The notes below the pieces were generated by a model, which was not told the DNA's origin, searched no databases, and was given only the letters and a program-made list of their open reading frames with translations. The position numbers and the translations under genes were made by a program. A stretch of DNA of 64,000 nt from Komagataeibacter xylinus (GTDB taxonomy: Bacteria > Pseudomonadota > Alphaproteobacteria > Acetobacterales > Acetobacteraceae), in NCBI RefSeq assembly GCF_031081985.1, contig NZ_JARWSK010000003.1, positions 248,001 to 312,000 of the forward strand. Direction: 5' to 3'. This document shows, in pieces, positions 3,803 through 28,727 of the stretch. Position 1 is the stretch's first letter; each line of letters starts with the position of its first letter.

Positions 3803-4894
<1,092 letters not shown>

Positions 4895-5112
4895 ATAAGA
4901 TTTGCCGCCATCCAAAAACCGGAACACATAAAAGGGCGTGTAGGGAAGCATCCGACCGGACCATGTTCAAGGCCCTACTGCATGAATACTTTGAATAAAC
5001 CCGCAGTTGCGGTTTTTCTGCCATAAGGCAGCAACCCGTGCCCGCATGCATTGCATCATACAGGCCATCAGCCCGCAGGGCTACCCGCCCGGCTGAAGCC
5101 TTGAAAAAAGAA

Positions 5113-5143
5113 CATCCCGCCATGCGGGGCGCATGGCGGGATG
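5113..5143 (-). terminator. Rho-independent terminator after htpG
   Basis: CATCCCGCCATGC pairs perfectly with GCATGGCGGGATG around a 5-base loop. Read on the minus strand, the stem is followed by a T-rich tract (CTTTTTTC). It lies about 30 bp beyond the htpG stop. Confidence 0.88.
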
Positions 5144-5175
5144 GTGATGATGTATCAAGTCGGCGCGGGGCCGGT

Positions 5176-11392: not shown

Positions 11393-11535
11393 GTGGCTGG
11401 CTCTTCCTTCAGGGGCTGGATCGTGACGGCGCGGCGGCCTGCGTCCGCCATTTCTTGACCCATTTGTGAAGCACCCTGCTCCCACGCCGCATGATCTAGC
11501 GCAAAAACAGGGCAAAGAGTGGAACCCTATATGCA

Positions 11536-11580
11536 AAAACCCTGCCTACAGGGCATGAACACGCCTGTAGGCAGGGTTTT
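11536..11580 (-). terminator. Rho-independent terminator of the bcs operon
   Basis: AAAACCCTGCCTACAGG pairs perfectly (17 bp) with CCTGTAGGCAGGGTTTT around an 11-base loop. It begins 27 bp after the bcsD stop, and on the minus strand the stem runs into TTTTT. It separates bcsD from bglxA. Confidence 0.93.
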
Positions 11581-11606
11581 GACGCAAATGGCGCGACTGG
11601 CAGGAA

Positions 11607-12077
11607 TCAGGTCGCGGCGCTGCGGGTGCGCATGTAAAGGATGATCGTCTGGGCCGGAACCGAGTTCAGGTCTTCCGCGTCGATATTGCGCGTCACGACG
11701 TAATCACCAAATGCACCGGGCTGCGACGTGATCCAGCGGCCATAAAGCCCTTCCAGAACCGGGGCAAGCCACGTGCCGGCGGGCTCGCCTGCGCTGCCCA
11801 CCTGAGGCAGGTCTTCATGCACGATGCGCATGGCCTGTTCTTCCGCCAGCAGGTCCAGCTTCACGTAGCCCCAGTTGATCATGGCCAGCAGGGCGTTCAG
11901 CTCGATCTGGAGCTGGTGGATGGTGTTGCACAGCGGCGGCTGGAAACGACCAGCCATACCACGGCCGACCTCGCGCAACAGGTCATTGCGGACCTCGATC
12001 CCGGCCTGATCATCGATCTCCCAGGACAGGGCCTGCAGGAAAAGCGAAAAGTCCGGTTTTGCGTTCAAAGTTGTCAT
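11607..12077 (-). CDS. bcsD: Cellulose synthase subunit BcsD
   Basis: A 156-residue protein, the known BcsD length, recognised along its whole length (MTTLNAKPDFSLFLQALSWE at the start, TIILYMRTRSAAT at the end). BcsD forms a periplasmic octameric ring whose channels are thought to guide four glucan chains, aligning terminal complexes into ribbons; it is largely restricted to ribbon-forming cellulose producers. Its ATG overlaps the bcsC stop (TAATG), so translation is coupled. It is the last gene before the operon terminator. Confidence 0.96.
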   Translation of the reverse strand: MTTLNAKPDFSLFLQALSWEIDDQAGIEVRNDLLREVGRGMAGRFQPPLCNTIHQLQIELNALLAMINWGYVKLDLLAEEQAMRIVHEDLPQVGSAGEPAGTWLAPVLEGLYGRWITSQPGAFGDYVVTRNIDAEDLNSVPAQTIILYMRTRSAAT

Positions 12078-15000
12078 TACTGGTCCATAATAAGATAGTG
12101 TGCGGAAATCATGGCGCCGCTTTCAGTCCAGTTACCGGCCTTCTGATAGCGCCCCGAGAGATCAAGACGAACATTGCGTGTAAAGCGATAACCCACCCTA
12201 GCATTAAAGCCACCGGTAAGACCAGCAATACTATCCCCAGGATAGTAGGCGCTGTTCACCGTTTCCTCCGACAGATATTCCGCCGGCGTGGCGCTCGCCG
12301 AGTAATTCGACGCGATGGTATTGGCGCCGGACTGCAGCAGCGATGACGTGGGGAAGAAGGGCGCCGAGTGCTCGTGGAACACCTGGTAGCCCACGCTGCC
12401 CGTCACGTCCCAGTCCAGCCGCTTGTGCTGGCCCGCATAGCGCACCGGCACGGTCGCCGCGTAATAGGATTGCGGCGAGAAGTAACCACCCTGCCCGTAG
12501 GTGTAGAAATCCTCGTTCTTGGCATAACCGAAATAGGTCAGGCTCACGCCAATGCGCACCAGCATGTTGGCGTTATGCCACACCAGCGTATTGGCGCCGA
12601 TGCCCGCTTCACGCTCGCTGTTGCGCTGCACGTTCTTGCCGGTCTGGATTGCGTAGCCACCGCCACCATACAGGATGGTGTTGCCCAGTGTCGCCTCGAC
12701 CTGCCCATGGAAGTGGTTGGTCACGACGCCACCCCATTCGCTGCCCCACTGCTTGGACAGTGCCTGGCCGTAGACCTGGCGGGCATACCGGCCAAGCGCG
12801 CTGTTGTAGTTCGTGTCACGCAGGCCGCCATAGGACAGCACGCTGTTGGTGATCGACCGGCGCTCGGCACTGACACGGAAGGTGACCGGACCCACGCGCG
12901 GCGAGAACTCGACACCGCCCAGCACGTTGGTGATGGGGAAGCCGATGGGCGACGCACCCACATCGGCCCGCACCCAGCTATTGCCAAACTGCACATCCGG
13001 CGCAAACCCGGCCTCGGCCGTGCCAGCGGCGATGCGCTGCTGGTCCCTGCCCGCGTTGGTATAGCTATCGTACTGGTTATATGCCTGCACGCCCATCATC
13101 GTGCCATAACGCGGCACATCATAGACGGAACCCGTGTTGAGGTTGCCCGACCAGATCATGGTTGGCGTGATCGAGAAGGTCAGGGCGGAAGCACCGGCCT
13201 GCAGCGGCAGGCGGCCCACGATGGGAATGTTCGCTTCCGTCAGGCGGCCCATGCCATGCTCACCCGAACGCGAGCGGAACCCGAGGCCACCATCGATGGA
13301 AGGGGCAAGGTTCTCACGCAGCGTGCGGATCTGGCCTGCGATGGAGGAGAGCATCTGGTCCGACGTATCGGGCGATGCCGCCTCGGCGCTGTAGGAGCCA
13401 CCGGTCACAGGCGCGCCAAGTTCCGTCTGGTGGCCGTAGCCACGCGGGCGGAACGGGTTGGTCGAGGGCGGAGCAAGCGCATCTTCCTGCGCAGCACCCG
13501 CGCCAGACGCGGCCCGCGTGCCCTCGACCTGCTGCAGGCGCAGGTCATAGGCGCGGCGCAGATCCTCGATGGTGCGCTGCCCGTGGCCATCGGCCTGGTC
13601 AGCCACGGCCATGGCCAGCCAGGCACGGGCATCCATCGGGCTTTCCTGCACGCCATCCATGGCAAGGCGGGTGGCAAGGCTGTTGTGGTCGCTGTTGACC
13701 GCCGCCTGCACCGCAGCCTGTCGCGCATCAAGGTCCTGCGGGTTGTGGCGCAGCACCGCAAGGTCGATCTCGAGCGCCTTGCCCGGCTTGCCGTGGCCAT
13801 TATACAGCCGCGCGAGCGCCAGCTTGGGCGATGTCGCCTCCGGGTCGGCCTGCAGCGCGGGGGCCAGATGATCATAGGCCTGCGCCTGGTCGCCACGCTG
13901 GTTGAGCAGATCGGACTGCGCCACCGAGATGCCCATGCGCAGTTGCTGGAGCGTCTGCACCTGCTCGGGCAGCAACGCGCTTCCTGTAGCCGAGCCCGTG
14001 CCATCCCCCAGCGGGGCCAGCAGCCGCGCAGCGGCCACCGGGTTGCTGATCTTCATGTATTCGGTGGCATAGGACAGGCGCTGGTCGGGCGAGAGATCGA
14101 TGGTGCGCGTCGAGGCGATACGCAGTGCCATGCGGGCATGCACCATGTCGCCACGCTGGCGGAACAGGTCAGCCACCGCCACGCCGCGCGCGCCGGTCGG
14201 ATCAGGCTGGGTCAGGGCCTCGCGGATCAGCGGCACCGGGTTGGACACCATGGACAGGCGGCTGGCCAGATCCTGCTTGATTTCCATTTCCTCGGCGATG
14301 GAACGGATGGCAGGAGAATAATCCGCAGGCGACAGACCAGCCAGAAGCTGGCGGGTCATCGCATCATTGCCACTACCATAGGTATAAAGGATACCGGCCT
14401 GGCGGTCCTGCGCGGTGACGGGATTGGCCAGGATGGGCTGCATCACGCGCCCGGCTTCGGCCACGTCGCCCTGCTGCTGCAGCGCATTGGCAAGGTTGAT
14501 GCGCACCCAGGGGTCACGTGGGGCCTGGGCCATCGCTTCGCGCAGGATGGAAACCTTGCGCGCTGAATCCGATGTCTGGGACGCAGCCGCCATCAGGCCC
14601 GAAACCTCGATCTCGCCCACCTGGCTTGCATATTGCGGGCCGACACGCGACAGGAGCTGGCGTGCTTCCGCCGTGTTGCCCTGCGCCATGTCTACCCGGG
14701 CCAGCCCCATGAGGGCCAACTGGTTATTGGGCTCACGCGACAGGATGCCACGATATTCCTGCTCGGCGGCGGCAATCTGGCCGGTCGAGCGCTGCAGGTC
14801 GGCCAGCATGAGGGTCGCGCCAGTATACTGGCCGGGCTGGCGGGCCAGCGTGGCAAGCTGCTGCTTGGCCTCGGTATATTGATGGGCGGCAATCAACTGG
14901 CGAACGGAAGCATACTCGCCGCTGACGGCCATGCCCGCAAGCGCCGGGCGCCAGCGATCGGCGGTCTTGGGGTCGGCGGCCATCGCTTCTTCAAAATAGC

Positions 15001-16036
15001 GGCGCGCCTCCGCGGTATCGCCCTGCCGCATGCTTACGAGCCCCATGCCACCAAGCGAATCAGCATCATGGGAATTGATCTGCAACGCCGACTGGAAAGA
15101 CTGCTCGGCTGCGGCAAGACGGCCCGCGTTAAGCTGCTGGTAACCTGCCTGGCGCGCAAGCCCGGCCTTGTCCGGCGGACCACCGGGGGGGTGGAGCATA
15201 TGCTCGCGCAGCGCGGTATCATTGGGGTGGGCGGAAAGCCACTGCTCCATGAGGGGCTGCGTCTCAGGATTGACCGGCAGCCAGCTCAGGGTCTGGCGGT
15301 AGGACTGCGCCGCGGCGGCCGCCTCGACCGGGGCCTGGCTGCGGAAGGACTGGAGATCCTTGAGCCGGGTCAGGCCTTCCATGCGGGTCGAGGTATTATA
15401 GGTCAGGGCCTGGGCAAAGGCGAGCTGGGCGCGGTAATCCTGCGGGTTTGACGCAACGACCCCGGCAAGCCCGGCGCGGGCCTGGTCCCACTGGGCCGGC
15501 ACGCCCGCCATGGTCTGGTAGTATTCCACCGCGAGCGAATGCGGCGGCTTGCCACCGTGGAACAGCTTCTGGTAGCCCGCCACCGCCTGCGCGTTCTGGC
15601 CCGAACCCGCCAGCGAGCGGATCTGCGACAGGTCGCTTTGGGAGATGGCCCGCTCGCTGAGCAGGTCATTCAGGTTACCTGCCGCGGCACTGCCCGGCGC
15701 CACCTGCTGCAGGTGGCGCAGCGTATCGGCGGCGGCTTCGCGGTTGCCAATGGCCGTCTGGTATTCACCCAGCACTTCCAGCACGTCAGGGGAATTGGGG
15801 GCGATGCGCTCCGCGTTCTGCAAGGCCTGGCGGGCATTGTCATACTGCTGCTGCTGAAGCCAGAAGCGTGCCTGCTGCAACAGGATCTGCCGTGGTGCCG
15901 CAGTCGCGCTCGTGGCAGCGGTGGTCATGGCGGTGGAAGCCTGCTGCGCCCGCGCAACAGGAACCGCCACCAGCACCGTCATGCAACTGCTGGCCAGCAG
16001 GGCACCAGAAAGCGAAAGGACGTATCGCCTGTTCAT
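12077..16036 (-). CDS. bcsC: Cellulose synthase subunit BcsC, TPR/outer-membrane export protein
   Basis: About 1319 residues. A signal peptide (MNRRYVLSLSGALLASSC, cut near ARAQQ) leads into about 20 tetratricopeptide repeats (for example residues 45-120, 300-460), the periplasmic scaffold that couples BcsA/B to the exit pore. The last 350 residues form the BCSC C-terminal beta-barrel that carries cellulose across the outer membrane, ending in LSGRYQK...HYLIMDQ. The GTG at 16042, overlapping the bcsB stop (GTGA) with an AGGCAGAG ribosome site close by, is an alternative start giving 1321 residues; ATG 16036 is the usual annotation. No frameshift is visible. Confidence 0.95.
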   Translation of the reverse strand: MNRRYVLSLSGALLASSCMTVLVAVPVARAQQASTAMTTAATSATAAPRQILLQQARFWLQQQQYDNARQALQNAERIAPNSPDVLEVLGEYQTAIGNREAAADTLRHLQQVAPGSAAAGNLNDLLSERAISQSDLSQIRSLAGSGQNAQAVAGYQKLFHGGKPPHSLAVEYYQTMAGVPAQWDQARAGLAGVVASNPQDYRAQLAFAQALTYNTSTRMEGLTRLKDLQSFRSQAPVEAAAAAQSYRQTLSWLPVNPETQPLMEQWLSAHPNDTALREHMLHPPGGPPDKAGLARQAGYQQLNAGRLAAAEQSFQSALQINSHDADSLGGMGLVSMRQGDTAEARRYFEEAMAADPKTADRWRPALAGMAVSGEYASVRQLIAAHQYTEAKQQLATLARQPGQYTGATLMLADLQRSTGQIAAAEQEYRGILSREPNNQLALMGLARVDMAQGNTAEARQLLSRVGPQYASQVGEIEVSGLMAAASQTSDSARKVSILREAMAQAPRDPWVRINLANALQQQGDVAEAGRVMQPILANPVTAQDRQAGILYTYGSGNDAMTRQLLAGLSPADYSPAIRSIAEEMEIKQDLASRLSMVSNPVPLIREALTQPDPTGARGVAVADLFRQRGDMVHARMALRIASTRTIDLSPDQRLSYATEYMKISNPVAAARLLAPLGDGTGSATGSALLPEQVQTLQQLRMGISVAQSDLLNQRGDQAQAYDHLAPALQADPEATSPKLALARLYNGHGKPGKALEIDLAVLRHNPQDLDARQAAVQAAVNSDHNSLATRLAMDGVQESPMDARAWLAMAVADQADGHGQRTIEDLRRAYDLRLQQVEGTRAASGAGAAQEDALAPPSTNPFRPRGYGHQTELGAPVTGGSYSAEAASPDTSDQMLSSIAGQIRTLRENLAPSIDGGLGFRSRSGEHGMGRLTEANIPIVGRLPLQAGASALTFSITPTMIWSGNLNTGSVYDVPRYGTMMGVQAYNQYDSYTNAGRDQQRIAAGTAEAGFAPDVQFGNSWVRADVGASPIGFPITNVLGGVEFSPRVGPVTFRVSAERRSITNSVLSYGGLRDTNYNSALGRYARQVYGQALSKQWGSEWGGVVTNHFHGQVEATLGNTILYGGGGYAIQTGKNVQRNSEREAGIGANTLVWHNANMLVRIGVSLTYFGYAKNEDFYTYGQGGYFSPQSYYAATVPVRYAGQHKRLDWDVTGSVGYQVFHEHSAPFFPTSSLLQSGANTIASNYSASATPAEYLSEETVNSAYYPGDSIAGLTGGFNARVGYRFTRNVRLDLSGRYQKAGNWTESGAMISAHYLIMDQ

Positions 16037-16038
16037 GA

Positions 16039-18447
16039 TCACGTTCTCTGCCTTTCTTCCTGCAGCTCACGACGGCGGCGCAGAGCATGCTTGGCCAGGG
16101 CGCGCACCATGACGGCCACAATCAGAATGCACCCGAGCAGGCCCACCACGATCACGCGGCTGGGGTGGTTGTGCATATACCAGTCAGGCTCGAGCCACAG
16201 CGGCACGGTGCCAACCGTATACAGCGGCGAACTCCGGTAGGATGTCAGATCATCGCCATGCGCCAGCACAAGGTCGCCCTGGATCTTGGCCTGGTTTTTA
16301 CGCTGTGCGAGGATCTGCACAAGATTGTTGAGCCCCTGCCCGTCACCCGAAAGCAGCGCGAGCACGGTCCGGCCTGATGCCAGAGGCGATTCTGCCTCGA
16401 TCATCGCGGCTACCCCCCCGGTCAGCGTGCTCTCGACATCGGTCGGGGCCGTATTGCTGATGCCCGACATGGGATCCTGGAACAGGTTCCATACGCCGCT
16501 CAGCGTCGAGCGCAGCCCCATGTGCAGCCGCCCGTCAGAAATCTGATAGGACGATTTGCTCAGCAGTTGCGAAACATCGCCGCTATTGGCCAGCGTGGAC
16601 AGGACAATCAGGTTCCGGTCCGCCACATCATTTACATGGTCGCTCGAGACCACATCCACGCCGGACACCGGATACCATGTCGTCGCGCCCATGAAGCCCA
16701 TGAGATCAAGATAGGCGCTGACGACCATGCCATTGGGGTGGTCGGGCAGCACCACGGCCGAGCGCGACAGGTCGGCATAGGTCGTGAACGGATAGCCCGC
16801 ACTGGCCATGAAGGCGAGGTTGGGCATGCGCGTGATATGATAGGAGTTGGACAGGTCGATCGTCGAATCCGGATCAACACTCATATGGAACGTGCTCGGG
16901 CCAGGTTTGCAGCCCGGCTCGGCCATCGCCGCCATCTCGAAATAGAACAGAAGCTGGTTCTGGCCAAAAACCCGGTAGGGCGGGATGGGCATGGTGTGCT
17001 TCTGCACGCTGTCATCGCCACGGCCCAGGCCCACGCGCCGCAGGATCTGGTCCAGCGTTGAATCCGGCTCACGCAGCGGATAGGCCTCAAGATAGGTATC
17101 GTTGATACCGACGTTGAGAGACGAGCGCGACACATCGACAATCGGTCCTGGCGGTGCGCGGAAACGGACGTTCAGCTTGTACGGTCGATCACGCCAGGTA
17201 TACAGATCGGGCGAGACACGGAACGGCACCGAGAGTGCGCCCGGCGCGTATCCCTGGGCCTGCAGGGCGCTGTCTGGCACCAGTTCGCCAAGGCGGACCG
17301 GACGGTTGGTGGGAATGAAGGAGGGCGCGTCATAGGCCACACGCGCGCCCACATCAATCGGCGCCACGTCCATGCGGTTGGCTGTTGGCAGGGCGCTCGA
17401 GCCAAAGCCGATGCTCTTGCTCGCGGTGATGACTTCATCACGGTCACGCCCCGTTACGAGCAGCACCGTGCCGTTGGGGTCGGATGGATTGGCCACTTCC
17501 ATAAGCGTGGGGCCATTGACCGCCTGGCGCCCGAGGGCGGAAGGCAGTTCATCAGCCACGCCAACGACAACGGCATTGCCCGTTTGCGGAATGGTGGAGA
17601 AGACCGGGAAGGTAACGCCACGGAAATCGGTCTGCTGGCCGAACCACGATGCCAGGATGCCGGTCGCCTTCAGCACTTCGGGATCAAATGTCTGTGCAAG
17701 AACGAACGGAATGACGATCTTCTGCTTTACGTTCTTGTCGAAGAACGGCTGGGGCAGGCGCGAGAGCTGACGACGCGGGGGAAGCGGTATGGTGGTGATC
17801 TGCAGTTCGGAATGTTCGGACACGCTGGCCCAGAGCAATCCGTTGCTGGGGTCCGTGCAGCCCTTCGAGCTTGAAGCGAAGCTGAAGTTCAGCCGGTTGC
17901 CCGTGATGAAGAAGATGGGGTTGATATCAAACGAGAGCGGCCCAAATGTAGGATGGGTGGGGTCCGGGCGTAGCGTGCCGATGAACTGCTCGTTCAGCGT
18001 GATCGTGACCGCGCTGGTATCAGGCTGGAGGCTGGGCGACATCGCTCCAGACACGATAAGCCGTGCCGACGTGACCAGCTGGTCGGCCGGAATGCCGAAC
18101 TGCAGGCCCTGCAGCGTGGCGGCGCCCTGCATTTTCAGGGCACTCTGCGCACCGAGCTCCTTGAGGGAGTATGTATGCACCGTTGCCACGTCAGACGCGG
18201 CAATGGCGTTCTCGGCATTATCCACGACCGCATCAGCCGCACTGGCTGATGCGGCATCCGCCGCCGGGGCGGTTGTGGCGGGCTGGTCCGCGCTTGCCGC
18301 AGCGGGCGTGGCAGCCTGCGATGCCGCGGCAGGCAGGGGCGGCAGGTCTGAGCCTGCGGGCTGCGGGGCTGGTGCCTTGGAGGCAACAGGCGCAGCCTGT
18401 GCGCCCGTTGCAAAGACCAGCAGCGCGATCAGGGACACCATTTTCAT
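16039..18447 (-). CDS. bcsB: Cellulose synthase regulatory/periplasmic subunit BcsB
   Basis: 802 residues from ATG 18447, the known length for K. xylinus BcsB. The signal peptide starts [20 protein letters not shown]. Two carbohydrate-binding jelly-roll/flavodoxin-like repeats follow, and a C-terminal transmembrane anchor ([19 protein letters not shown], about residue 765) docks onto BcsA. An Ala/Pro-rich stretch lies at residues 20-75. It guides the nascent glucan through the periplasm and is required for BcsA activity. The start overlaps the bcsA stop region by a few bases, and the end overlaps the bcsC start, consistent with one translationally coupled operon. Confidence 0.96.
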
Positions 18448-18448
18448 A

Positions 18449-20713
18449 TCACGAGGCCGCACGGCTGATCTTTCCTTCCTGTGTCTGTCCACTCTGGATG
18501 GTTGTGGGCTCCCTGCGCTCAACCGGTAGGGCAAGTGGTTTTCTTTTTGGACGACTATTGGCCATCATTTTGCCTTTTTTGCGGAACAGCGCCTTAATGC
18601 TGAGCAGCAGGCTCCACAGACTGCGTAGCGGTCTGTCATCCTCATAATTATTCCATTGCAGCCAGGCATCGGCCCGCCCGAACACGAAGCGGACAATATC
18701 GCGTTCCGTATCAAGGTCATTATTGTCCCATGTGAACACGGCCTTGCCATTCTTGCAGCGCAGCATGGTGGCGGGAATATCGATCTCCTCGCCATCGAGC
18801 ACGGCATGAATGCGTGTCTTGACTGGTCCTGTGCTGACATCTGGCCAGGGCATGTGGACGGCAACGCCACCCATGGAGACATCCTGGGTCATGCCCGGTG
18901 TCGCATTATGGTAGGTATTGGGCTGCCCCGCGACCGGTGCTTCATAAACCGTTACCGGGATATGCGCCTCGACACGATGGTTGTAACGGACCTGCTTGGT
19001 CTCACGCCCCACGGCAATGGCGGCAAGGAGGATGATGAGACTGATCATCGCCCAGATGCAGTTCAGCAGGTAAGCACGCTTGGCAATGCCCGCGAGCTGG
19101 TTGAAGTGGAAGGTCAGTTCGAACAGACCGATCAGCAGCCCCAACGTCATGATGCCGGCAAAAATGATGTTGGGGTAGGTCGCGCCAAGGTCGAACTCTT
19201 CCTCCTCCAGCACGCCACCCTTTTCCGTCACGTTGAACTTGCCCTTGGAGGGGAACATCAGGGTGATGATGGTTACGCGCACCAGGAACAGCGCCATGGT
19301 GGTTTCGTACACTTCACTCCAGAACGAATAGCGCCAGCCCTTGTTCACCTTGGCGGCGGTCGCGATGGAGTGGAACATGTGCGGAATGGCGTAGGCCAGC
19401 ACGGCCAGCGGCGAGGCGGCGATGATGTTCTGGCCGAAAAACAGGAACGCCAGCGGCGAGGCAAGGAAGATGACGCGCGGAATGGCGAAGAAGAACGACG
19501 TCATGGCCGAGAGATAGCACAGCCGCTGCCCAAGCTTCAGGCCGCCCCCGAGCATCGGGTTGTCCACGCGGAAGATCTGGATCATGCCGCGTGCCCAGCG
19601 CATGCGCTGGCCGATATGGGTTGTCAGTCGCTCGGTGGCCAGTCCACTGGCAACGGGAATGCGCAGGTAGGCGGTGGACCAGCCACGGCGCTGCATGCGC
19701 AGGGCGGTATGGGCATCTTCCGTCACGGTTTCAACCGCGAAGCCGCCGATCGATTCAATGGCTTCACGCCGCAGGATGGCGCACGAGCCGCAGAAGAAGG
19801 TGGCATCCCAGAAGTCGTTACCATCCTGAATGACGCCGTAGAACAGGTTGCCTTCCGGCGGGGTGCGATACCCCACGGCCAAGTTACGCTGGAACGGATC
19901 GGGGGAGTAGAAGTGATGCGGCGTCTGCATCAGGGCGATCTTGCGGTCTGCGACCATCCAGCCCATCGCGATCTGCAGGAACGCGCGTGTCGGAATATGG
20001 TCACAATCCAGGATGAGGATGTAATCGCCGCTTGTCCGCTTAATGGCGTGGTTGAGGTTACCCGCCTTGGCGTGTGAACTGTCGACGCGCCCGATGTAGA
20101 GAGCGCCGCAATCCTTGGCAAACTGTTCAAATTCGGGGCGCACACCATCATCAAGGATATAGACATTCACTTTATCGGGCGGCCAGTCGATGCCCAGCGC
20201 GCCCAGCACGGTCAGGCGCACGATGCTGAGCTGTTCATCATAGGTCGGGATGAAGATGTCGACGGTTGGCCAGTCATCAACATTGTCCGGCAGGGGCAGC
20301 GGCGCGCGATGAAGTGGCTGGATTGTCTGGAAATAGCTGAGAAACAGCATGTACAGGGCATAGAGTTCGGCCATGAGCAGGGTCACGCCCAGCCCGCCCT
20401 GAATCCATGTATCGAAGTCCAACGTTTCGGTCAGGCGCCATGTCAGGTAACGCAGGGAGACCAGCGCCGAGAGCACCTCGAGAAAGATCTGGGTGCGGCG
20501 GCTCTTGCCGCGCCCGACAATAAAAAAGACGAGCACACACACAAGTGCCACAATCAGCTGCTCATTAATGGACAGCGTGACCGTGGTTGCGGCGATAAGT
20601 GCACAAAGCCCCAGCGCTCCAACTATATAGTTGGCCCCACGCAGTGACAGTATCTTGTTGGAAAAGCGGTCTAGCCTACTCTCCGCGGGTACTGGCGACT
20701 GAACCTCTGACAT
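18449..20713 (-). CDS. bcsA: Cellulose synthase catalytic subunit BcsA (UDP-forming)
   Basis: 754 residues. This inner-membrane GT2 polymerises glucose from UDP-glucose into beta-1,4-glucan and extrudes it. All catalytic motifs are intact: DDG at 188-190, DCDH at 236-239, FFCGS at about 306-310, TED at 331-333 and QRMRW at 369-373. About eight transmembrane segments flank the catalytic domain. A C-terminal PilZ domain keeps the c-di-GMP-binding arginines (RYNHR) and the DVSMGG motif, so synthesis should be c-di-GMP activated. ATG 20713 gives the known N-terminus [14 protein letters not shown] 176-bp gap separates it from ccpAx, so it may have its own promoter. Confidence 0.98.
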
Positions 20714-20889
20714 CAATAGCTCGTCCGATAATAAATACTGGTAAAACAGGTCGTTATATATTCAAAAGAAAACCGTCAGACGCATTCGGTCCGTCATGTC
20801 GCCTTTCGGCCCGCAGCGATGCGGGGCGGGGAAAACCTTCCCCCTTCTTTCCTCTGACATGCCGGGAGCAGGTCGCCCCCGGCACGGTT

Positions 20890-21915
20890 TCAGGAGTCGC
20901 CGTTCGCGTCTTCACGCTTGCGCAACAGGGCATCGCGCAGGCTGGGCTTGGGCACCAACCGGTCCGTGGCCCGACCACCAAGGGTCATGAACACTTCGGT
21001 CAGGGTCGGGGAGTTGTCGGTCGGCACGGGGCGGCCAGCCTGACTGCCATTCGGGGAAATCTTGTCAACTTTGGTCATTGTGGTCACCTTGGAAACAGGT
21101 TTTGAAACAGGCCGGGACACCGGTGCTGACTGGAACAGCCTTGCTGCGGGCGCCCGTTCGCTTCCGGCGCCGAAAAAGAAGCCTGGTCCTGTCAAACGCT
21201 GCCCACGCTGCTGCTGGGCCTTGGGCACGGGGGCCCAGTCCTCTGCCGCAACAGGAGGCGTGGCCGACGCTGTCGTGCCAAAAGCCGGAGTCGCCGGACG
21301 CGGCGCCATGAAGGAAGACACCGCAGGCCTGGTCGGGGCTGGCGACGCTACGGGCTGCTCCTGCCTTACGGGCTGGGGCGGCACTTCAGGGGCTGGCGGC
21401 GTCACGGTGGCTGCGGGCTGCGGCGGCGCGACAGGGGGCGGGGCCGACTGTGGCGCGGGCTCATATGCCGGGGCCGCTACGGCCTCAGCATGAGCAGCCA
21501 CATAGGGTTCGGAAGCTGCAGCCGGCGCGACATAGGGTTCTGGCGCGGCCTGTTCGGGCTCTGGCTGCGCGGCATAGGTATCATGCGAGGCAGGCGTGTA
21601 CGTCGTTTCCGCGTAGTCATGCATGTGCGCTGCATCCTCGGCGGATGCAGCGGGCGCTGAGTAGGTGGAATAGGTATCATCGTAAGACGAGGCCGAATGC
21701 TGTGCCGCCTCTTCAACGGCATGCTCGGTGGCGGCGGCCTGGGTTGCAGCGGACTCGTCGTGCTGGACCACGGGCTTGGGCGGACGCTTCTGCTTGAAAG
21801 CGCGATAGTGAAAACCTGCGCTGCTGACACCATAGCCATCTGTCAGCATGCGATCGACATCCTGCTGGTTGTCGGTATTCACCGGTGCTTCCACTTCCTT
21901 TTCAGGTGTGCTCAC
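20890..21915 (-). CDS. ccpAx: Cellulose complementing protein CcpAx (BcsH)
   Basis: 341 residues. The protein is low-complexity, rich in Ala, Pro and Glu through residues 60-230, with conserved ends: MSTPEKEVEAPVNTDNQQDV and, at the C-terminus, TLTEVFMTLGGRATDRLV. CcpAx occurs only in Komagataeibacter-type cellulose producers, interacts with BcsD, and is needed for terminal-complex arrangement and normal crystallinity. Its ATG overlaps the cmcAx stop by 4 bp (ATGA). No enzymatic motif is present. The length of the Pro/Ala region varies between strains, so the size is not unusual. Confidence 0.95.
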   Translation of the reverse strand: MSTPEKEVEAPVNTDNQQDVDRMLTDGYGVSSAGFHYRAFKQKRPPKPVVQHDESAATQAAATEHAVEEAAQHSASSYDDTYSTYSAPAASAEDAAHMHDYAETTYTPASHDTYAAQPEPEQAAPEPYVAPAAASEPYVAAHAEAVAAPAYEPAPQSAPPPVAPPQPAATVTPPAPEVPPQPVRQEQPVASPAPTRPAVSSFMAPRPATPAFGTTASATPPVAAEDWAPVPKAQQQRGQRLTGPGFFFGAGSERAPAARLFQSAPVSRPVSKPVSKVTTMTKVDKISPNGSQAGRPVPTDNSPTLTEVFMTLGGRATDRLVPKPSLRDALLRKREDANGDS

Positions 21916-22988
21916 ATTCCATCTCCCTGGTTCCGGGCGATATAGGCCAACATCGTCAACGCAGCCGAATAGTAGTCGGGCGCATGATCAAGCGTGGGCA
22001 GTTCGCCGGCCGATGCAAGGCCCGTGCATGATGCCACGGCCAGATAGCCCGGCGGCGCATTATAGGGCGAACGCGAGCCGTTGGTCAGGTCGACCCAGCC
22101 CGGCAGGGCGGACGCGCCATAATGGTTCCAGAACCGGCTGAAATCCGCCTGCAGCTCCGGGGTCAGCATATGCGCCCAATACAGGTAGAGCGGCACGCGA
22201 ATCGCATCATACGAGAAGCGCGGCGGCCAGCCCTTGGCAATGGAGAAGGCATTGGTGTGCAGGTTGATCGACAGCCAGTCCGGCGGAAGCTTCCACTCAC
22301 CGAATCGCCCCTTGGCGATGATGAGCAGCCCGTCGCCCATCACCTTTGTCCACTTGGCGTCACCTGTCAGCGCGAAGGCCTGCATGAGCGAGGGCATGAC
22401 ATAATAGGACAGGTTGAGGGTGACCGTATCCTTGGTCATGAACCCGACCGCGCCGGGCAGCAGCACCGTGTAGGGGCCGACGGTCTTGGTCATGAGCTTC
22501 AGCACATCGCCATAGATGGCCATAGCGTCCTGTATATAGTCAGCGCGCTTCCAACGCTTGCCGGCCCAGGCAAGACCGAGGGCGATGAGCAGGTCGCCAT
22601 CGGTTGCGTTGTTCTTGTCGGCTACAGGCGGGTTATGCCCATCAAGGTACCGCCAGGAGAACAGGGCATCATCCTTGTGCTGCAGGTTGGTGCGCGCCCA
22701 GGTCCAGATCGCCTCGAACGCCGCCCGGTCGCCTGCGGCAGCGGAGAACAGCATGCCGTAGCCCTGCCCCTCGCTGTGGGATTCGCCGCTATTGCCCGTA
22801 TCGACAATGCGCCCGTCAGGATGAAAATACTTGGTGCGGAAAATGGTCCATTGCTGGGCGATCTGGGGGTTCATGCCAATGGCGTCATCGGCCAGTGCGC
22901 CAGAAATCATGGGAAAGCTGCCTGCCACTGCCAAGGCGGACAGAAAGGAGCGGCGCCCCATTCCGGATACACGTTCTTGCAGCTTCAT
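21912..22988 (-). CDS. cmcAx: Endo-beta-1,4-glucanase CMCax, GH8
   Basis: A GH8 cellulase of about 358 residues, the BcsZ-type accessory enzyme of cellulose synthesis. The N-terminus carries a twin-arginine-like signal (GRRSFLSALAVAG), then the mature enzyme. The general-acid glutamate lies in SHSEGQGYGM (about residue 73), followed by NNATDGDLLIALGLAW and the catalytic aspartate in PRFSYDAIRVPLY. It trims amorphous or mis-assembled glucan, and its loss disturbs ribbon formation. The start is uncertain: 23003, 22988 and 22961 are all in frame. It is translationally coupled to ccpAx by a 4-bp overlap. Confidence 0.95.
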   Translation of the reverse strand: MKLQERVSGMGRRSFLSALAVAGSFPMISGALADDAIGMNPQIAQQWTIFRTKYFHPDGRIVDTGNSGESHSEGQGYGMLFSAAAGDRAAFEAIWTWARTNLQHKDDALFSWRYLDGHNPPVADKNNATDGDLLIALGLAWAGKRWKRADYIQDAMAIYGDVLKLMTKTVGPYTVLLPGAVGFMTKDTVTLNLSYYVMPSLMQAFALTGDAKWTKVMGDGLLIIAKGRFGEWKLPPDWLSINLHTNAFSIAKGWPPRFSYDAIRVPLYLYWAHMLTPELQADFSRFWNHYGASALPGWVDLTNGSRSPYNAPPGYLAVASCTGLASAGELPTLDHAPDYYSAALTMLAYIARNQGDGM

Positions 22989-23391
22989 AAAATCCAACAG
23001 CATCTACCACCACACCCTCAAGAAGTCTGAACCCATGTCATTGCCTGGCCGAACGCATGCCGCGCTCTCGATACCCTGCCGTGCCATGACGCCTTAATCG
23101 GAAACTCCCCCATCCTGCAAGTCGAAGGCGACTATCCCGGGACAGACTTCAATTATTGAAAAGGACCATAACGTCTCTTCCCCCAACGGCGAAACCATCA
23201 CCAGCGCCACGACGAGCGACAGGGAGAGAGAAGTTGCATTTTTGTCACGCAGGAGGAAATGCCCACCCAGCAAAAACCGTTTGATGATTCCTGGAAAAAT
23301 TAAAGAAGAAAATATTGCAAATGATCGCCGTTCACTATGGGGCCATCTTTCGCAAAATTAAAAGGCGGAAAATATTTTTAAATTTCATGCC

Positions 23392-23452: not shown

Positions 23453-23713
23453 TTATATATTAATATAAAAAAGATTGCCTTGCCATAGACAGTCTACATC
23501 CAGTGCAAAAATATTTTCCGTGATACGCGCCAGCGATTTTGCCTGAAATCGCTCGATCGCCGCACGACTTGCGTATCCGCCATTGCGCCGCCACGCGCCC
23601 GGAACACCTCCGGCAGCCGGGTAACCATCATGCCCGTACACGTACTTTGCCCCCCAGCGGTCAGGGAAACCATGCGGCGTTGAATCACCAATTGAAACCT
23701 CAAGGCAGATCAT
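23453..23713 (-). CDS. Doubtful 86-codon open frame, unknown
   Basis: The frame reads in part VSIGDSTPHGFPDRWGAKYV and then YGHDGYPAAGGVPGAWRRNG, with a more genome-like base composition in 23510-23710 than its flanks. The frame stays open upstream of the Met. I do not recognise a family. The C-terminal third is AT-rich and looks non-coding. It could be the remnant of a gene lost with the decayed locus. Confidence 0.25.
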   Translation of the reverse strand: MICLEVSIGDSTPHGFPDRWGAKYVYGHDGYPAAGGVPGAWRRNGGYASRAAIERFQAKSLARITENIFALDVDCLWQGNLFYINI

Positions 23714-23962
23714 AAAAGCAGACTGATCCGGATCCCCTGTGAATCCTGTTCCTGCCCATTAAAAAATACCGCCCGACCTGACACGAAAGCCATCGTGACT
23801 TTCCCGCAGGCACGCCTGCCGAATTCCCGCATGCGGGCCGTCAGGCAGATGCGCGTTTTGCATCTGGAATAGATATATCCCATTGACACGTTTTGCTATT
23901 TGTTAGACATTCCGTGGCAGTATCGTAATAATTTTAGATATAGAAAACAAACCGCTGTTTAA

Positions 23963-24989
23963 AATAGCAATATCGAGGCGGAGTCTATCTTCATTATCAG
24001 TTGGCACTGCTGTTATTTTAGAAACTGGGACGAATACAAAAAAAAACGTTTCCTTCTTCCTGAAGGTCGTATCTGTGATACTGGCAATAAAAACATTTCG
24101 CATAGTGCAAGGCCAAGGTTACGGGCTTTTATGTGCCCAGCACTATAACGACCGCGAGACCTTCGACCTTATCCTGAAATGGACCGATCAGTGGCTGAGC
24201 CGCCCCAGCGATGCCCTGCATTCCTGGCGTTACGTGCCGGAAGGCACAGATCATGTTGCCGAGAAGCGGTGCGCGACGGATGGCGAACTGCTCATGGGCC
24301 TTGCACTGGCACGGGCTGCCTTACGCTGGAATGACACCCACCTGCGTGAACGGTCGGTCGCCATCTATACGGACGTGCTGAAACTGCTGGTCGCACGGGC
24401 TGGCGACAAAACGATACTGCGACCGGCTGATGTCGGATTTGAAACGGGCGGCACCCATACGGTCAACCTCTCTTACTACATTTTCCCCTCGCTGCGTGCC
24501 GGGGCGCAGCTATGCCCCTCCCCCGTGTGGGATACCCTGATCCGGGATGGGGCCGAACTGATGCAACTGGCCCGGTTCGGTATGTGGAAGCTTCCCCCCG
24601 ACTGGCTGCAGATTGACAACAACTCGCTGGACATGATCCCCGCGCCCGGCTGGCCGCCCCGCTTTTCATTTGATGCGATCCGGGTGCCCCTTCATGCCTG
24701 GTGGGGCAATATCTGGGACGAGAATACCGCAGGCATCTACCATCGTTTCTGGAATGCGTGGCCCGACCATAACATTCCCGCATGGGTCGACCTGGAAACA
24801 GGGGAACGCAACAATGGCGCCACGCCCGGCGGATATATGGCCGTTGCAATCTGCACCGGTCTCGAAGGCATCGGCCCCCTGCCCCAAGGCCTGCCCGATA
24901 TTACCCCATACGATGATTATTACTCTGCTTCCTTGAAAAGGCTGGCCCATATTGCATGGGATGATCGTAATAATTCTGACCCACGGTAA
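23963..24989 (+). pseudogene. Frameshifted GH8 beta-glucanase, paralogue of cmcAx
   Basis: The main open part (24075-24989) encodes a GH8 body: CATDGELLMGLALA, then VNLSYYIFPSL, PPDWLQIDNN and the catalytic-aspartate region PRFSFDAIRVPLH, ending DDYYSASLKRLAHIAW. It clearly resembles CMCax but is diverged, so it is an old paralogue. The upstream 36 codons in another frame (NWDEYKKKRFLLPEGRICDTGN, ISHS) supply the missing N-terminal part. The two frames meet exactly at the general-acid codon, where GAA has become GCAA by one extra C at 24108. No start codon or signal peptide is visible before the stop at 23960-23962. It is the first of four broken genes in one orientation. Confidence 0.85.
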
Positions 24990-24997
24990 AATATACG

Positions 24998-26294
24998 ATG
25001 AATGAAATAACAGATATTCCTTCTGAACAACCAGGAGGATTTCGCGCCAGAATACGGCAGGCGCAGGAATATTATAGAAATAACCAGGCAAAATGCCTGC
25101 GCATCCTCAAATTTGGGGGCGCAGGCACAATCATAGTCGCAACGGGTCTGGGCTTTCTGTCGCATCAGCAACTGATCATTTCATCTGATGCCGTCGTGTC
25201 AGCGTATACAACGGATGTGCGGGCACCGATTTCCGGTCGGCTCGAGGTCGCCACGCCCTCCGTCGGTACCCATGTAAAAGAAAAAAATGGCGCTTGGCCG
25301 GATCATCAACGACCGGGCTGAACATCTGACCCTGCTGCACCTACAGCAGCAGCTCGCGCAGGTCGAGACCGACCTGCAGGCCTATCAGGCTGAAAATGCG
25401 GACCTCACCCAGATGTACGATCAACTGCACAAGCGTGGTGAGGACTACAACAAGCTTGAAGCCCAGTACCTGCGCAGCGAAGTCGAGCAGGTCCGGGCGG
25501 AACAGGGGCAACAAACAGCCCGGCACGCACTGGCATCGCGCGATCTGCAGCGCCAGCAGCAGCCCGCCCAGGAAGGCTGGCTGTCCAGCGCCTATCTGGA
25601 CAAGTATCGTACCCAGCTTTCCACTTCCAGCAACGGTGTCAGTGCCAGTAACGAACGCATCAATTACCTGACGGTCAAGGCGGCGGCGGAAAACGGCTTT
25701 CAGCTTGATAGCGGCTCGAATGACACGCCCTATTCAGCCCAGCGCGCGGATGAAGTGCATCTGCGCATTGCCGATATCGCCCGCCAGATCGCCAGCCTGA
25801 CAGCCCAGCAGCATGGCCTGGAACAGGAAGTGGCCGAAGCCCGCGTCGAAGATGCGCAACTGAGCGATACGGTGCTCCAGGCCCCCACGACCGGCATGAT
25901 CTGGAATATCCGCCATCTGGGTGATGCCCGGGTGTTCCAAGCTGAAAGTCTGTTCCAGATTGTTGATGACCACAGCCTGTTTGTGCTGGCGCTCGTGCCG
26001 CAGAACCGCATTGACACCGTGCGTGAAGGGGGTTTGGCCCATTTCCGTATTGAAGGTGGCAAGAAGGAATATACGGGTCATGTCGTATCAGTAATCGGTG
26101 ACAACATCCTCAATGCCAGCAACCAGTATGCCAGCTTCCCCACCGCATCGGCTGGCGGCAGGAACGGACTGGTCAGCATTGCCATTCAGGTACCCCAGGC
26201 GGATGCCTCCAACATGATTGGCCGGACAGCGCATGTCGTACTGCCGACAACGGACAGCTCCCCCATAAAGCGGCTTTTAACCTGGCTTTGGTAA
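24998..26294 (+). pseudogene. Frameshifted HlyD-type periplasmic adaptor (membrane fusion protein)
   Basis: The first frame (24998-25321) has a short cytoplasmic N-terminus, one transmembrane segment (about residues 38-58) and the first half of a lipoyl-like domain (TDVRAPISGRLEV). The second frame (25287-26294) continues with a long coiled coil rich in Gln/Leu (about 200 residues), the second lipoyl half (TVLQAPTTGMIWNI) and a beta-barrel domain (HVVSVIGDNI). They are split by one extra A in the A7 run at 25281-25287; with six As the reading THVKEKMALGRIIND is continuous. Such adaptors link an inner-membrane synthase or transporter to an outer-membrane channel. It starts 8 bp after the GH8 stop. 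Confidence 0.85.
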
Positions 26295-26300
26295 CGATAC

Positions 26301-27205
26301 ATGGTGATCTGGGTTCTTCTTCTATGTTGCAGCTTTTTTATCGTAAATTATGGCAATGTAGATCATATAATATACAATAAGTACTTCAGGATTGCATTTG
26401 CTGTAATTTCGTTGATTATTGGCATATGGTATCTGCACTGGCGCTACTTCGATGCCGTTCCCCATTATCATTCATGGCTTGCCCAGACCTGGGTCTATCT
26501 GTTCCTGTCTTTTGAATTCGTTGCGATATGCTCAGGCTTTCTGGGTACGATTGTACTGAGCCGGACCATCAACCGCAGCAAACAGGCTGATCGTGGCCTG
26601 CTGTCCCCCCTGCAGCATGCGCCGACGGATGTCTTCATCGCTACGTACAATGAATCGTATGATATCCTGGAGCGAAGCATTATTTCCGCCTCGTCCATCA
26701 ACCACCCTGATTTACGGGTCTGGGTGCTGGATGATGGCAACCGCGACTGGGTGCGTAAACTGGCCGAGGAAAACGGGGCTCAGTATACATTCCGTATCAA
26801 AGGCAAGCATGCAAAAGCTGGCAATGTGAATAATGGCGTGAAAATTGCACGCTCCACGGGCCGGAAACCTGATTTCATTTTGCTGCTTGATGCTGACTTC
26901 ACGGTAAAAAATAATATATTACAGCGCGTTCTGCCAATATTTGAAGAAAAAGATATTGGCATTGTCCAAACCCCTCAGCACTTCTTCAATCCCGATCCGA
27001 TACAGATCAACCTCTGTGCCATACAAGCTGGCCGGATGAGCAGCGCGTTTTTTTCAATTCCATTCTTGAATCCAAGGATGCATGGAATGCGGCGTTCTGC
27101 TGCGGCACCTCGGCAGTTTTCCGGGCTGAAGCACTGGAAAAATGCGGCGGCCTTGCCACGGCAACCGTAACAGAAGACATGCTCACCAGCTTCCTCATGG
27201 CCGCA
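26301..27205 (+). pseudogene. Truncated, frameshifted GT2 polysaccharide synthase
   Basis: It starts 6 bp after the adaptor. Two or more transmembrane segments (residues 3-15, 30-48, 62-88) precede a cellulose-synthase-like GT2 domain with VLDDGN (142-147), KGKHAKAGNVN, LLDADF (195-200) and QTPQHFFNPDPIQ. At 27021-27029 the frame shifts; the new frame continues WPDEQRVFFNSIL, AFCCGTSAVFR and TVTEDMLTSF. Everything after the TED motif is gone, including the QxxRW motif, the export helices and any regulatory domain, because the sequence passes in frame into a TolC-like protein. The product cannot be a working synthase. It is distinct from BcsA at the sequence level. Confidence 0.87.
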
Positions 27206-28355
27206 CAGGGTAACAACAGCGCATTCACCCGTAATTATGATGTGCCGGGCTATGATGCGGGCCTCATGATCACGCAACCCCTTTTCCGTGGGGGCGCCAC
27301 CGTCGCTTCAACCCGCCAGGCCATCCATAATGTCCATGCGGAACGCGCCCGCCTCATGGCGACCGAACAGCAGGTGATGCAGGATGTCATCAATGCCTAT
27401 GTGGGTCTGATCGAAACCCAGAAAATTCTTGAATTTTCCATCAATAATGAAAAGTTACTGGAAGCTCAGGCAGCTGCCACGCACAGCCGCTTTGGCGCAG
27501 GCGACGTGACACGGACCGATACGGCCCAGGCCGAGACGGCCCTTTCGATAGCTCAGGCGACACGACAGGATGCGGAAGCCCCGCCGAAAATGCCAAGGCG
27601 CGCTATATGCAGGTCGTTGGTGACGAGGCGCCGGAGCATCCGATCATGCCCTCGCCTTACAAGATTGATATCAATAACGAAAAAGATGCTGTTGCCATAG
27701 CGAAGCAGAACAATCCAAATGTATTGTTTGCAACATCATCCGCCCTTGCTGCCAAAAATGCCGTTTCTATTGCCATGGCCACGTTGCTGCCAAGATCTCG
27801 ATCAATGCCGGCTATGACCACAGCATCAACCAGAGCGATGGCCGCTCGGAGCTCGACAACAAATTCGTGCTGCTGAGCGCCTCCCTTCCCCTCTATCAGG
27901 GGGGTGCGGAATATGCCGCCGTCCGGCAGGCCCGCCAGCAGTGGGAGGCCGCCCAGCGCGCCGTGGATGTGCAGAACCGCAGCGTAACGCAGCAGACCAT
28001 TACTTCATGGAACCGCATGCAGGCCTACCGGCAGGAAATCGACAGCACGCACTCCGCGGTGGAAACAAGCGTTATCGCCGTCCGCGGCGTCGAGCGTCAG
28101 GCACTGGTGGGCACGGGTACCACCCTTGCGGCATTGCAGCAGCAGCAGACAGCCCTGATTGCCCAGGTCGCCCTTGTGCGCAGCCAGAGCAACTATATCC
28201 GCTCCAGCTACGCCATGGCTGCGGCGCTGGGGCGTCTGAATGCCGAATCACTTAACCTCAATGTCCCACGTTATGATGAGAAGGCCTATTATCACGACGT
28301 AAAATACAAGCTGTTCGGTCTGGGCGATTACGCCGTCCATCAACCCGGGCGCTAG
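27206..28355 (+). pseudogene. TolC-type outer-membrane channel, N-terminus deleted, two frameshifts
   Basis: Recognisable outer-membrane efflux blocks: DAGLMITQPLFRGGATVAST, then EQQVMQDVINAYVGLIE; in a second frame AENAKARYMQVVGDEAP and NNEKDAVAIAKQNNPNVL; and in a third frame KISINAGYDHSINQSDGRSE, LPLYQGGAEYAAVRQAR and LVGTGTTLAALQQQQTALI. Frames change at about 27580-27583 (in a GCCCCGCC run) and at 27790-27792. The first 100 or more residues, including the signal peptide, are missing; the gene is joined in frame to the GT2 remnant. It is the last gene of the decayed locus and would have formed the exit pore. Confidence 0.83.
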
Positions 28356-28651
28356 CAGACCACCGGGCTTTACAGTCGGACCTTCCACCAGCGTCATGGG
28401 GCAACATGCGCTGGCTGGGCACGCGGCTGAAAGCCCGGCTGCTTCATGAACAGGGCATCACGCAACCGCCCGGCAGCCATGGCCAAGCACAGACGCAACC
28501 CTGCGGGAAGCCGTCATGTCTTACGATTTTATAATGGAAAGTCCTGACCATACCGGCTTATCCGGTCAGGCATTGCCTGTTATCTGATCAGGTGAAGACC
28601 TAAACCAGACCTGTATTCAGCTACATCATGCATGGCTCATGCGAAAGTAGC
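28356..28651. other. Intergenic region after the decayed locus
   Basis: About 300 bp between the channel remnant and tRNA-Glu. It contains an imperfect hairpin (CCTGACC/GGTCAGG, 28543-28570) without a T run. I find no gene, attachment-site duplication of the tRNA end, or mobile-element end. Confidence 0.5.
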
Positions 28652-28727
28652 TGGCGTCCCGTAGGGAATTCGAACCCCTGTTGCCGCCGTGAGAGGGCAG
28701 TGTCCTAGGCCTCTAGACGAACGGGAC
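28652..28727 (-). tRNA. tRNA-Glu (CTC)
   Basis: A 76-nt cloverleaf: acceptor stem GTCCCGT/ACGGGAC, D-arm TCGTCTAGAGGCCTAGGA, anticodon stem-loop CTGCC-CTCTCAC-GGCGG with anticodon CTC, T-arm with GGTTCGAATTCC, discriminator G and an encoded CCA. It reads GAG codons. It is intact and lies at the border of the decayed region. Confidence 0.95.

Follow-up and report, generated by a model that had tools for sequence, protein, structure and literature searches.

The DNA analysed here (the window) is a 64,000-nucleotide stretch of a Komagataeibacter xylinus genome (contig C11 of an assembly of 3.53 Mb in 16 contigs). Its plus strand carries, between positions 23964 and 28355, the remnants of four genes, which encode, in this order, a glycoside hydrolase of family 8 (GH8), a HlyD-type adaptor, a glycosyltransferase of family 2 (GT2) and a TolC-type channel. 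The corresponding Pfam matches are GH8 (PF01270, 3.9e-39), HlyD_3 (PF13437, 1.4e-8), Glycos_transf_2 (PF00535, 1.2e-16) and OEP (PF02321, 1.2e-18 and 1.9e-13); the first piece of the adaptor, of 107 amino acids (aa), has no Pfam match of its own. The gaps are 8 bp between GH8 and HlyD and 6 bp between HlyD and GT2. The order, common strand and 6-8 bp spacing described in a first-pass annotation, which had been made from the letters of the window alone, are thus borne out.

The lesions were mapped by frame-by-frame comparison of the window DNA, as assembled, with the proteins of a lesion-free copy in Komagataeibacter sp. FXV3. There are five frame changes, at about 24107, 25280, 27014, 27581 and 27793, and a deletion which fuses GT2 to TolC (Table 1), the same count as had been given previously. 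The residues FLM are present in both partners at the deletion junction, and therefore a short shared stretch may have mediated the deletion. Two lesions may be added to the count, namely a short deletion, accompanied by a frame change, at about 24017-24023 in the GH8 signal region and an L-to-P change within the docking motif of the adaptor. The frame change at about 24107 falls on the glutamate of SEGQGYG, which we take to be the catalytic acid of GH8.

In the neighbouring bcs operon (9185-23003, 13.8 kb), whose gene names, apart from bcsA and the GH8 gene, are our assignments from gene order, all seven large open reading frames (ORFs) are open. At the frame-change density of the cluster, about 16 frame changes would be expected in these ORFs by our own arithmetic, which makes sequencing error unlikely. 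The decay of the four-gene cluster is therefore local, as the first-pass annotation had held. That the frame changes are errors of sequencing or assembly, the genes being intact in the organism, is very improbable: one of the five lies at a run of seven A and another beside a run of four C, but two deletions (one taking about half of GT2 and a fifth of TolC), the missense change in the docking motif and the seven open ORFs speak against it.

Table 1. Features of the four-gene cluster and its surroundings in the window
Feature	Position	Strand	Basis and remarks
GH8 pseudogene	23955..24989	+	Tat-like signal; Pfam; 84% identity to FXV3 P0003 over 297 residues
HlyD/EmrA-type periplasmic adaptor pseudogene	24998..26294	+	Pfam; frame change about 25280; docking motif RQQQPAQEGWLS
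GT2 synthase pseudogene, 5' part only	26301..27200	+	Pfam; frame change about 27014; about 54% of protein deleted
Deletion junction, GT2 residue ~300 / TolC residue 110	27191..27211	+	Frame comparison, sequence
TolC-family outer-membrane channel pseudogene	27200..28355	+	Pfam; first ~109 residues gone; frame changes about 27581, 27793
GH8 gene of the intact bcs operon, presumably cmcAx/bcsZ-type; left neighbour of the insert, outside the cluster	21912..23003	-	ORF, Pfam
Inserted segment, about 5.1 kb	23520..28651	.	blastn of junctions against congener empty sites; right end = 3' end of tRNA-Glu
tRNA-Glu(CTC), 3' end = right edge of insert	28652..28727	-	ARAGORN

The lesion-free copy and its relatives

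The first-pass annotation had proposed a search of relatives for an intact version of the cluster, and a GH8-HlyD-GT2-TolC operon was found in Komagataeibacter sp. FXV3 (contig NZ_VWPI01000044.1), in the same order, on one strand and without the lesions of the window. Its products measure 339 aa (GH8, from its ATG), 446 aa (HlyD), 648 aa (GT2) and 497 aa (TolC), and its gaps are 6 bp (HlyD-GT2) and 54 bp (GT2-TolC). In the aligned blocks, the proteins of the two copies are 84-94% identical. The dN/dS values over aligned codons are 0.081 for GH8 (293 codons), 0.097 for HlyD (227 codons, excluding what follows a one-residue gap), 0.057 for GT2 (300) and 0.033 for TolC (381). Purifying selection therefore acted on the genes during most of the time since the two copies separated. 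The dS values, 0.9-1.8, are near saturation, and thus neither copy derives from the other by recent transfer. When the FXV3 operon was scanned for promoters and terminators, the matches (15 and 8, respectively) hardly exceeded those in shuffled sequences (10.2 and 6.0).

The FXV3 cluster (L019) is flanked by an OLD-type nuclease (AAA_21 and OLD TOPRIM) and a transposase remnant, at 4259-5911 and 12607-13173; no counterpart of the nuclease was found in the window genome. A review credits FXV3 with a cellulose yield up to three times that of K. xylinus (PMC12735843, available in part), which is no evidence for this operon.

Among 19 Komagataeibacter genomes, GT2 is present in two, those of the window and FXV3, and the same two have a second GH8. 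At E 1e-60 or better, a GT2 match is present in 14 of the 397 Acetobacteraceae genomes, these two included. From a scan of genome contigs for the GT2, the best 80 of 349 relatives were kept. A HlyD gene lies upstream of GT2 on the same strand in all 80 (in L064 it is split over two frames, and several loci are cut by a contig end). BcsC was detected in none of the 80 loci, while the same profile finds it in all three control loci. BcsB was likewise detected in none, but its one-sequence profile found only one of two controls (that of Kozakia, the annotated Gemmobacter BcsB being missed), and the absence of BcsB is therefore weak evidence.

In FXV3, GT2 is adjoined by the HlyD and TolC genes. 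Three other loci (L026, L028 and L030) have HlyD and GT2 with neither GH8 nor OEP; L030 (genome G322) is, besides the window's own, the sole genome of the 14 outside the 80 loci. A conserved four-gene family is accordingly rejected, since all four genes occur together only in FXV3 and the window genome within the searched set. The OEP profile used for this census was built from 21 sequences, and a one-sequence version gave the same result. The TolC of the FXV3 operon is an extra copy, as the strain has a second TolC at 53% identity. A TolC of this type is found at E 1e-70 or better in 361 of the 397 family genomes (with at most three candidates scored per genome), and this widespread TolC could be the partner of adaptors without a TolC gene nearby.

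Two loci of the scan show features of their own. L036, a contig filed under Actinomycetota (Solirubrobacterales 70-9), bears a HlyD-GT2 pair of the alphaproteobacterial clade, perhaps through a binning error, and in L037 a separate PilZ-domain protein (5401-5973) is encoded near the HlyD-GT2 pair on the opposite strand.

Synthase, adaptor and channel

The FXV3 GT2 (P0001) conserves the D, D, D, QxxRW and FxVTxKG residues. It scores 345 bits with TIGR03030 (CelA), against a cut-off of 699 and 878 bits for the BcsA of the window. In a tree of 61 rows it falls inside a HlyD-linked set of 18 rows (support 100; two rows are identical), whose hosts include Acetobacteraceae, Beijerinckiaceae, Acidobacteria and others, and outside the BcsA clade (11 rows, support 100). 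A careful tree of 30 rows yields the same two groups (100/100 each), and grouping of the FXV3 GT2 with BcsA is rejected by the approximately unbiased (AU) test (p-AU 0.0024). The notion of a BcsA that has lost its BcsB is thus rejected by clade, AU test and TIGR03030 score.

The relations to the other synthases are less sharply defined. Joining the clade of the FXV3 GT2 to BgsA, the glucan synthase of Sinorhizobium meliloti, is neither supported nor rejected (p-AU 0.085), and joining it to a CrdS-like protein of A. pusense (L139) is not rejected (p 0.168), nor is placing all non-BcsA synthases on one side (p-AU 0.299). The FXV3 GT2 and BgsA as an exclusive pair are rejected (p-AU 5.3e-5), which says little because the former has a clade of its own. 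BgsA is itself placed beside BcsA with moderate support (93 in the 61-row tree, 90/94 in the 30-row tree). The first-pass annotation had stated that the GT2 is not a Bcs synthase and had proposed its comparison with BgsA, BcsA and CrdS; the former holds, and in the latter a union with BgsA or with the CrdS-like protein is not rejected.

Residues that separate BcsA from CrdS and BgsA are named in the available part of PMC6821405. At the positions of RsBcsA N298/E299/Y302, at the channel entrance, Q/R/F is found in 80 of the 80 HlyD-linked GT2 and in none of 13 BcsA; the S. meliloti BgsA and the A. pusense protein, whose identity as CrdS rests on three residues, have Q/R/F too. Similarly, 79 of the 80 have QTPQ, as do BgsA and the CrdS-like protein, while all 13 BcsA have QTPH. 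At RsBcsA positions 309/412/480 the residues are K/D/G in FXV3, R/P/G in BgsA and K/H/H in the CrdS-like protein. Channel-entrance residues of the CrdS/BgsA type lean toward a glucan with (1,3) bonds without settling the linkage.

A PilZ domain (PF07238) is matched in the FXV3 GT2 barely above the cut-off (23.9 versus 22.5 bits), and RxxxR and DxSxxG are present. The model of this GT2 has a six-stranded C-terminal barrel (pLDDT 91.6), and its best fold matches are BcsA proteins, namely that of Escherichia coli (9b8v, E 2.6e-43) and a form bound to cyclic di-GMP (c-di-GMP; 4p00, TMq 0.85). A loose pattern for the PilZ motifs matched 56 of the 80 HlyD-linked GT2 and 10 of 13 BcsA. It matched L139 too, and CrdS, the supposed relative of L139, is reported to be without PilZ motifs. 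Because the pattern is loose, the PilZ claim rests on the Pfam match and the model.

In the AlphaFold model of the FXV3 adaptor (pLDDT 88, pTM 0.63), a helix at 124-205 is followed by helices at 211-246 and 260-304, and R199, L203 and S210 lie at the turn between the first two. The adaptor therefore has the motif RxxxLxxxxxx[S/T] at the tip of its alpha-hairpin. By this RLS/RLT motif AcrA, MacA and HlyD bind TolC, and E. coli HlyD with substitutions in it binds TolC more weakly or not at all (PMC3391258, available in part). At the aligned motif positions, 77 of the 80 adaptors have the R, 76 the L and 62 all three residues. Seven columns are invariant among 43 adaptors picked from the 80 for length, R199 and L203 being two of them. 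The pattern occurs anywhere in the sequence in 72 of the 80 adaptors, compared with 33 of 80 after residue shuffling. The S. meliloti adaptor has an RLT motif, and the adaptor upstream of the CrdS-like protein has neither RLS nor RLT. The nearest solved folds by Foldseek are EmrA and EmrAB-TolC, with TM-scores by query length of 0.25-0.40, so low that the likeness speaks to fold class. The FXV3 channel (P0004) passes TIGR01844 (264 versus 225.15 bits), and docking of the adaptor on this TolC-family channel may be inferred.

The nearest PDB structures of the FXV3 GH8 are the endoglucanases 6vc5 and 1wzz, and its identity to CmcAx is 44%.

Predicted mechanism and comparison with known systems

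Judged from its sequence, the region is likely to be a dead copy, inserted next to a tRNA-Glu gene, of an operon for a c-di-GMP-controlled beta-glucan synthase that exported its product via the adaptor and a dedicated TolC. In such a system GT2, an inner-membrane protein with a PilZ domain, would polymerise UDP-glucose to a linear beta-glucan when c-di-GMP is high, and would thread the growing chain through its own membrane channel. The EmrA/HlyD-like adaptor, replacing BcsB, would take the chain and dock by its hairpin tip on the TolC-family channel, which would replace BcsC and carry the glucan out. The GH8 would act in the periplasm as a trimmer that removes stalled or misfolded chains. With the linkage of the glucan set apart, the interpretation in the first-pass annotation is thus supported.

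Several points weigh against this reading. The system is known here from its genes, its product and export being predictions. The HlyD-linked synthases are not one clade in either tree (2-3 label changes), and the FXV3 GT2 lies on a long branch (0.92) and has an odd composition. Only FXV3 passes the Pfam PilZ cut-off among four HlyD-linked GT2 scanned, and the full docking motif is not present in 18 of the 80 adaptors. A linked OEP gene occurs in one of the 80 loci (FXV3) and a linked GH8 gene in two (FXV3 and Caenispirillum, L099), counts that are limited in that just 50 of the 80 loci reach 3 kb or more past GT2 and 5 kb or more ahead of it; the four-part set is therefore not a conserved unit. 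The GH8 of Caenispirillum is not more closely related to that of FXV3 than CmcAx is, so that GH8 and GT2 as an old pair are not supported and GH8 was probably recruited separately. Finally, the Tat-like signal of the FXV3 GH8 (SRRKLS...ARAQ) has no in-frame ATG, GTG or TTG before it (a CTG stands at the same place in both copies), and therefore even this GH8 may be badly exported.

It is possible, if rather doubtful, that the GT2 makes plain (1,4)-beta-glucan, as has been proposed for the XcsA of Thermosynechococcus, and that the operon is a further cellulose machine. The proposed cyanobacterial system (XcsA, XcsB and XcsC with TolC) has the same parts, namely a PilZ synthase, a HlyD-like adaptor, an endoglucanase and a TolC-like channel (PMC12430437, available in part), and the endoglucanases nearest to the GH8 agree with a cellulosic product. 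In contrast, the Q/R/F of the channel entrance is that of BgsA and the CrdS-like protein and unlike that of the 13 BcsA, in a comparison without cyanobacterial XcsA; no XcsA of cyanobacteria was found among 60 of 504 plasmid records. The two systems are likened by parts and not by sequence, and they differ in that the T. vulcanus genes are scattered, whereas the four of FXV3 form one operon. According to the available part of the same 2025 review, the XcsAB-TolC model is without experimental validation, and it is left open whether clusters organised as operons function in the same way.

It is unlikely that the cluster belongs to the bgsBA system of S. meliloti and Rhizobium etli, which makes a mixed-linkage glucan with alternating (1,3;1,4) bonds. 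In its favour, a HlyD gene directly precedes GT2 in S. meliloti, the order to which the first-pass annotation had drawn attention; the synthases share Q/R/F and the G at the RsBcsA E480 position; and the S. meliloti adaptor, too, bears a docking motif (RLT). The S. meliloti pair (L120) is inferred to be bgsBA from its order and plasmid, since the record says only glycosyltransferase. On the other hand, union of the clade with BgsA is not supported, though not rejected by the AU test either, and BgsA stands beside BcsA; positions 309 and 412 are unlike those of BgsA; and the two synthases are 34% identical. BgsA is activated by c-di-GMP (PMC5567048 and PMC9495663, both available in part) and is reported in the former to be without PilZ motifs, in contrast to the PilZ match of the FXV3 GT2. 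In an 18-kb S. meliloti stretch there is no GH8 or TolC among the features listed, although the gene tables of PLSDB are incomplete.

Other known systems are more distant. With the Bcs operon and CmcAx of Komagataeibacter the cluster shares the fold of the synthase, PilZ and the type of GH8, but the FXV3-type GT2 has no BcsC nearby, stays below the TIGR03030 cut-off and does not group with BcsA. The crd curdlan locus is similar in Q/R/F and in the K at RsBcsA L309, as seen in L139, which also has an upstream HlyD_3 protein. It differs at positions 412/480, where FXV3 has D/G instead of H/H; in terms of A. tumefaciens CrdS, FXV3 has K, D and G at Lys270, His374 and His442, the residues given in the available part of PMC6821405. 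The EmrAB-TolC efflux pump has in common the fold class of the adaptor, the RLS motif and a TolC-family channel, but the inner-membrane partner here is a processive glycosyltransferase and not a transporter.

The nearest described systems are thus bgsBA and the proposed XcsAB-TolC, which the FXV3 operon resembles while having all four parts together. In a literature search for HlyD with cellulose synthase in Komagataeibacter, no such cluster appeared by title or abstract among the matches listed, and the word TolC is absent from the available parts of the bgsA papers PMC5567048 and PMC9495663. We are inclined to think that the whole class of HlyD-linked beta-glucan synthases, with BgsBA among them, uses TolC for export, by a route separate from BcsB/BcsC and mostly with a housekeeping TolC, and that the FXV3 operon is the only one found so far to bring a TolC paralogue and a GH8 of its own.

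The passage of mixed-linkage and cyanobacterial beta-glucans across the outer membrane is still an open question. The XcsAB-TolC genes are not in one operon (PMC12430437, in its available part), whereas FXV3 unites synthase, adaptor, TolC and GH8 in a cellulose-producing genus. If the proposed export via adaptor and TolC is true, its operon would be a self-contained machine in which the XcsAB-TolC mechanism may be tested gene by gene, and the docking motif shared by 62 of the 80 adaptors offers a test by point mutation. Komagataeibacter would have, or have had, a glucan-making system separate from bcs, with a possible effect on the composition of the pellicle.

The insertion site beside tRNA-Glu

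By blastn, the window matches five close empty sites up to 23488-23519 on the left of the cluster and again from 28641-28651 on the right. The GC content is 0.552 in the cluster, compared with 0.637 in the window. The region around cmcAx was surveyed in 16 stretches from 15 of the 18 other Komagataeibacter genomes (G391, G397 and G398 being left out). In 12 of the stretches, FXV3's L206 among them, cmcAx is followed by tRNA-Glu within 0.6-1.1 kb and then by rluD and rpoH; by gene order these represent the empty site or a near equivalent, and the insert is thus absent here from 12 congener genomes. Three stretches of more distant congeners (L197, L208 and L209) have 8-9 kb between cmcAx and tRNA-Glu, and the remaining one (L207) is a second FXV3 contig without the anchors of the cmcAx site.

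The first-pass annotation had set the cluster next to the cellulose operon. The position is correct, but the FXV3 cluster sits at a different site, and therefore the closeness is probably not ancestral; the adjacency looks like an accident of insertion. The insert is consistent with integration at the end of a tRNA gene, the sole support for site-specific integration being the precise boundary at the tRNA end. No integrase was found in the insert, and no clear repeat of the tRNA end at its left edge. In a search for mobile elements, 23500-24030 had no plasmid match and an 86-aa ORF at 23453-23713 had no Pfam match, 28356-28640 being outside the search. The flanks of the insert, 23530-23930 and 28356-28640, are without recognised genes.

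The longer intervals of L197 (2443-11650) and L209 (2320-10733) hold BcsC and a GDSL lipase, and that of L209 also an acyltransferase. Cellulose-export genes therefore seem to have been gained and lost in the interval between cmcAx and tRNA-Glu. In addition to the operon in the window, the window genome encodes three more BcsA-type synthases with very long open frames (1501-1564 aa) on C9, C12 and C11 (L115-L117). The tRNA-Glu(CTC) of the window differs by one base from that of the five close congeners, by our own reading in the T-stem pair next to the loop (G-C to G-U). The base is near the 3' end, where the insert begins, and may have come with the insert.

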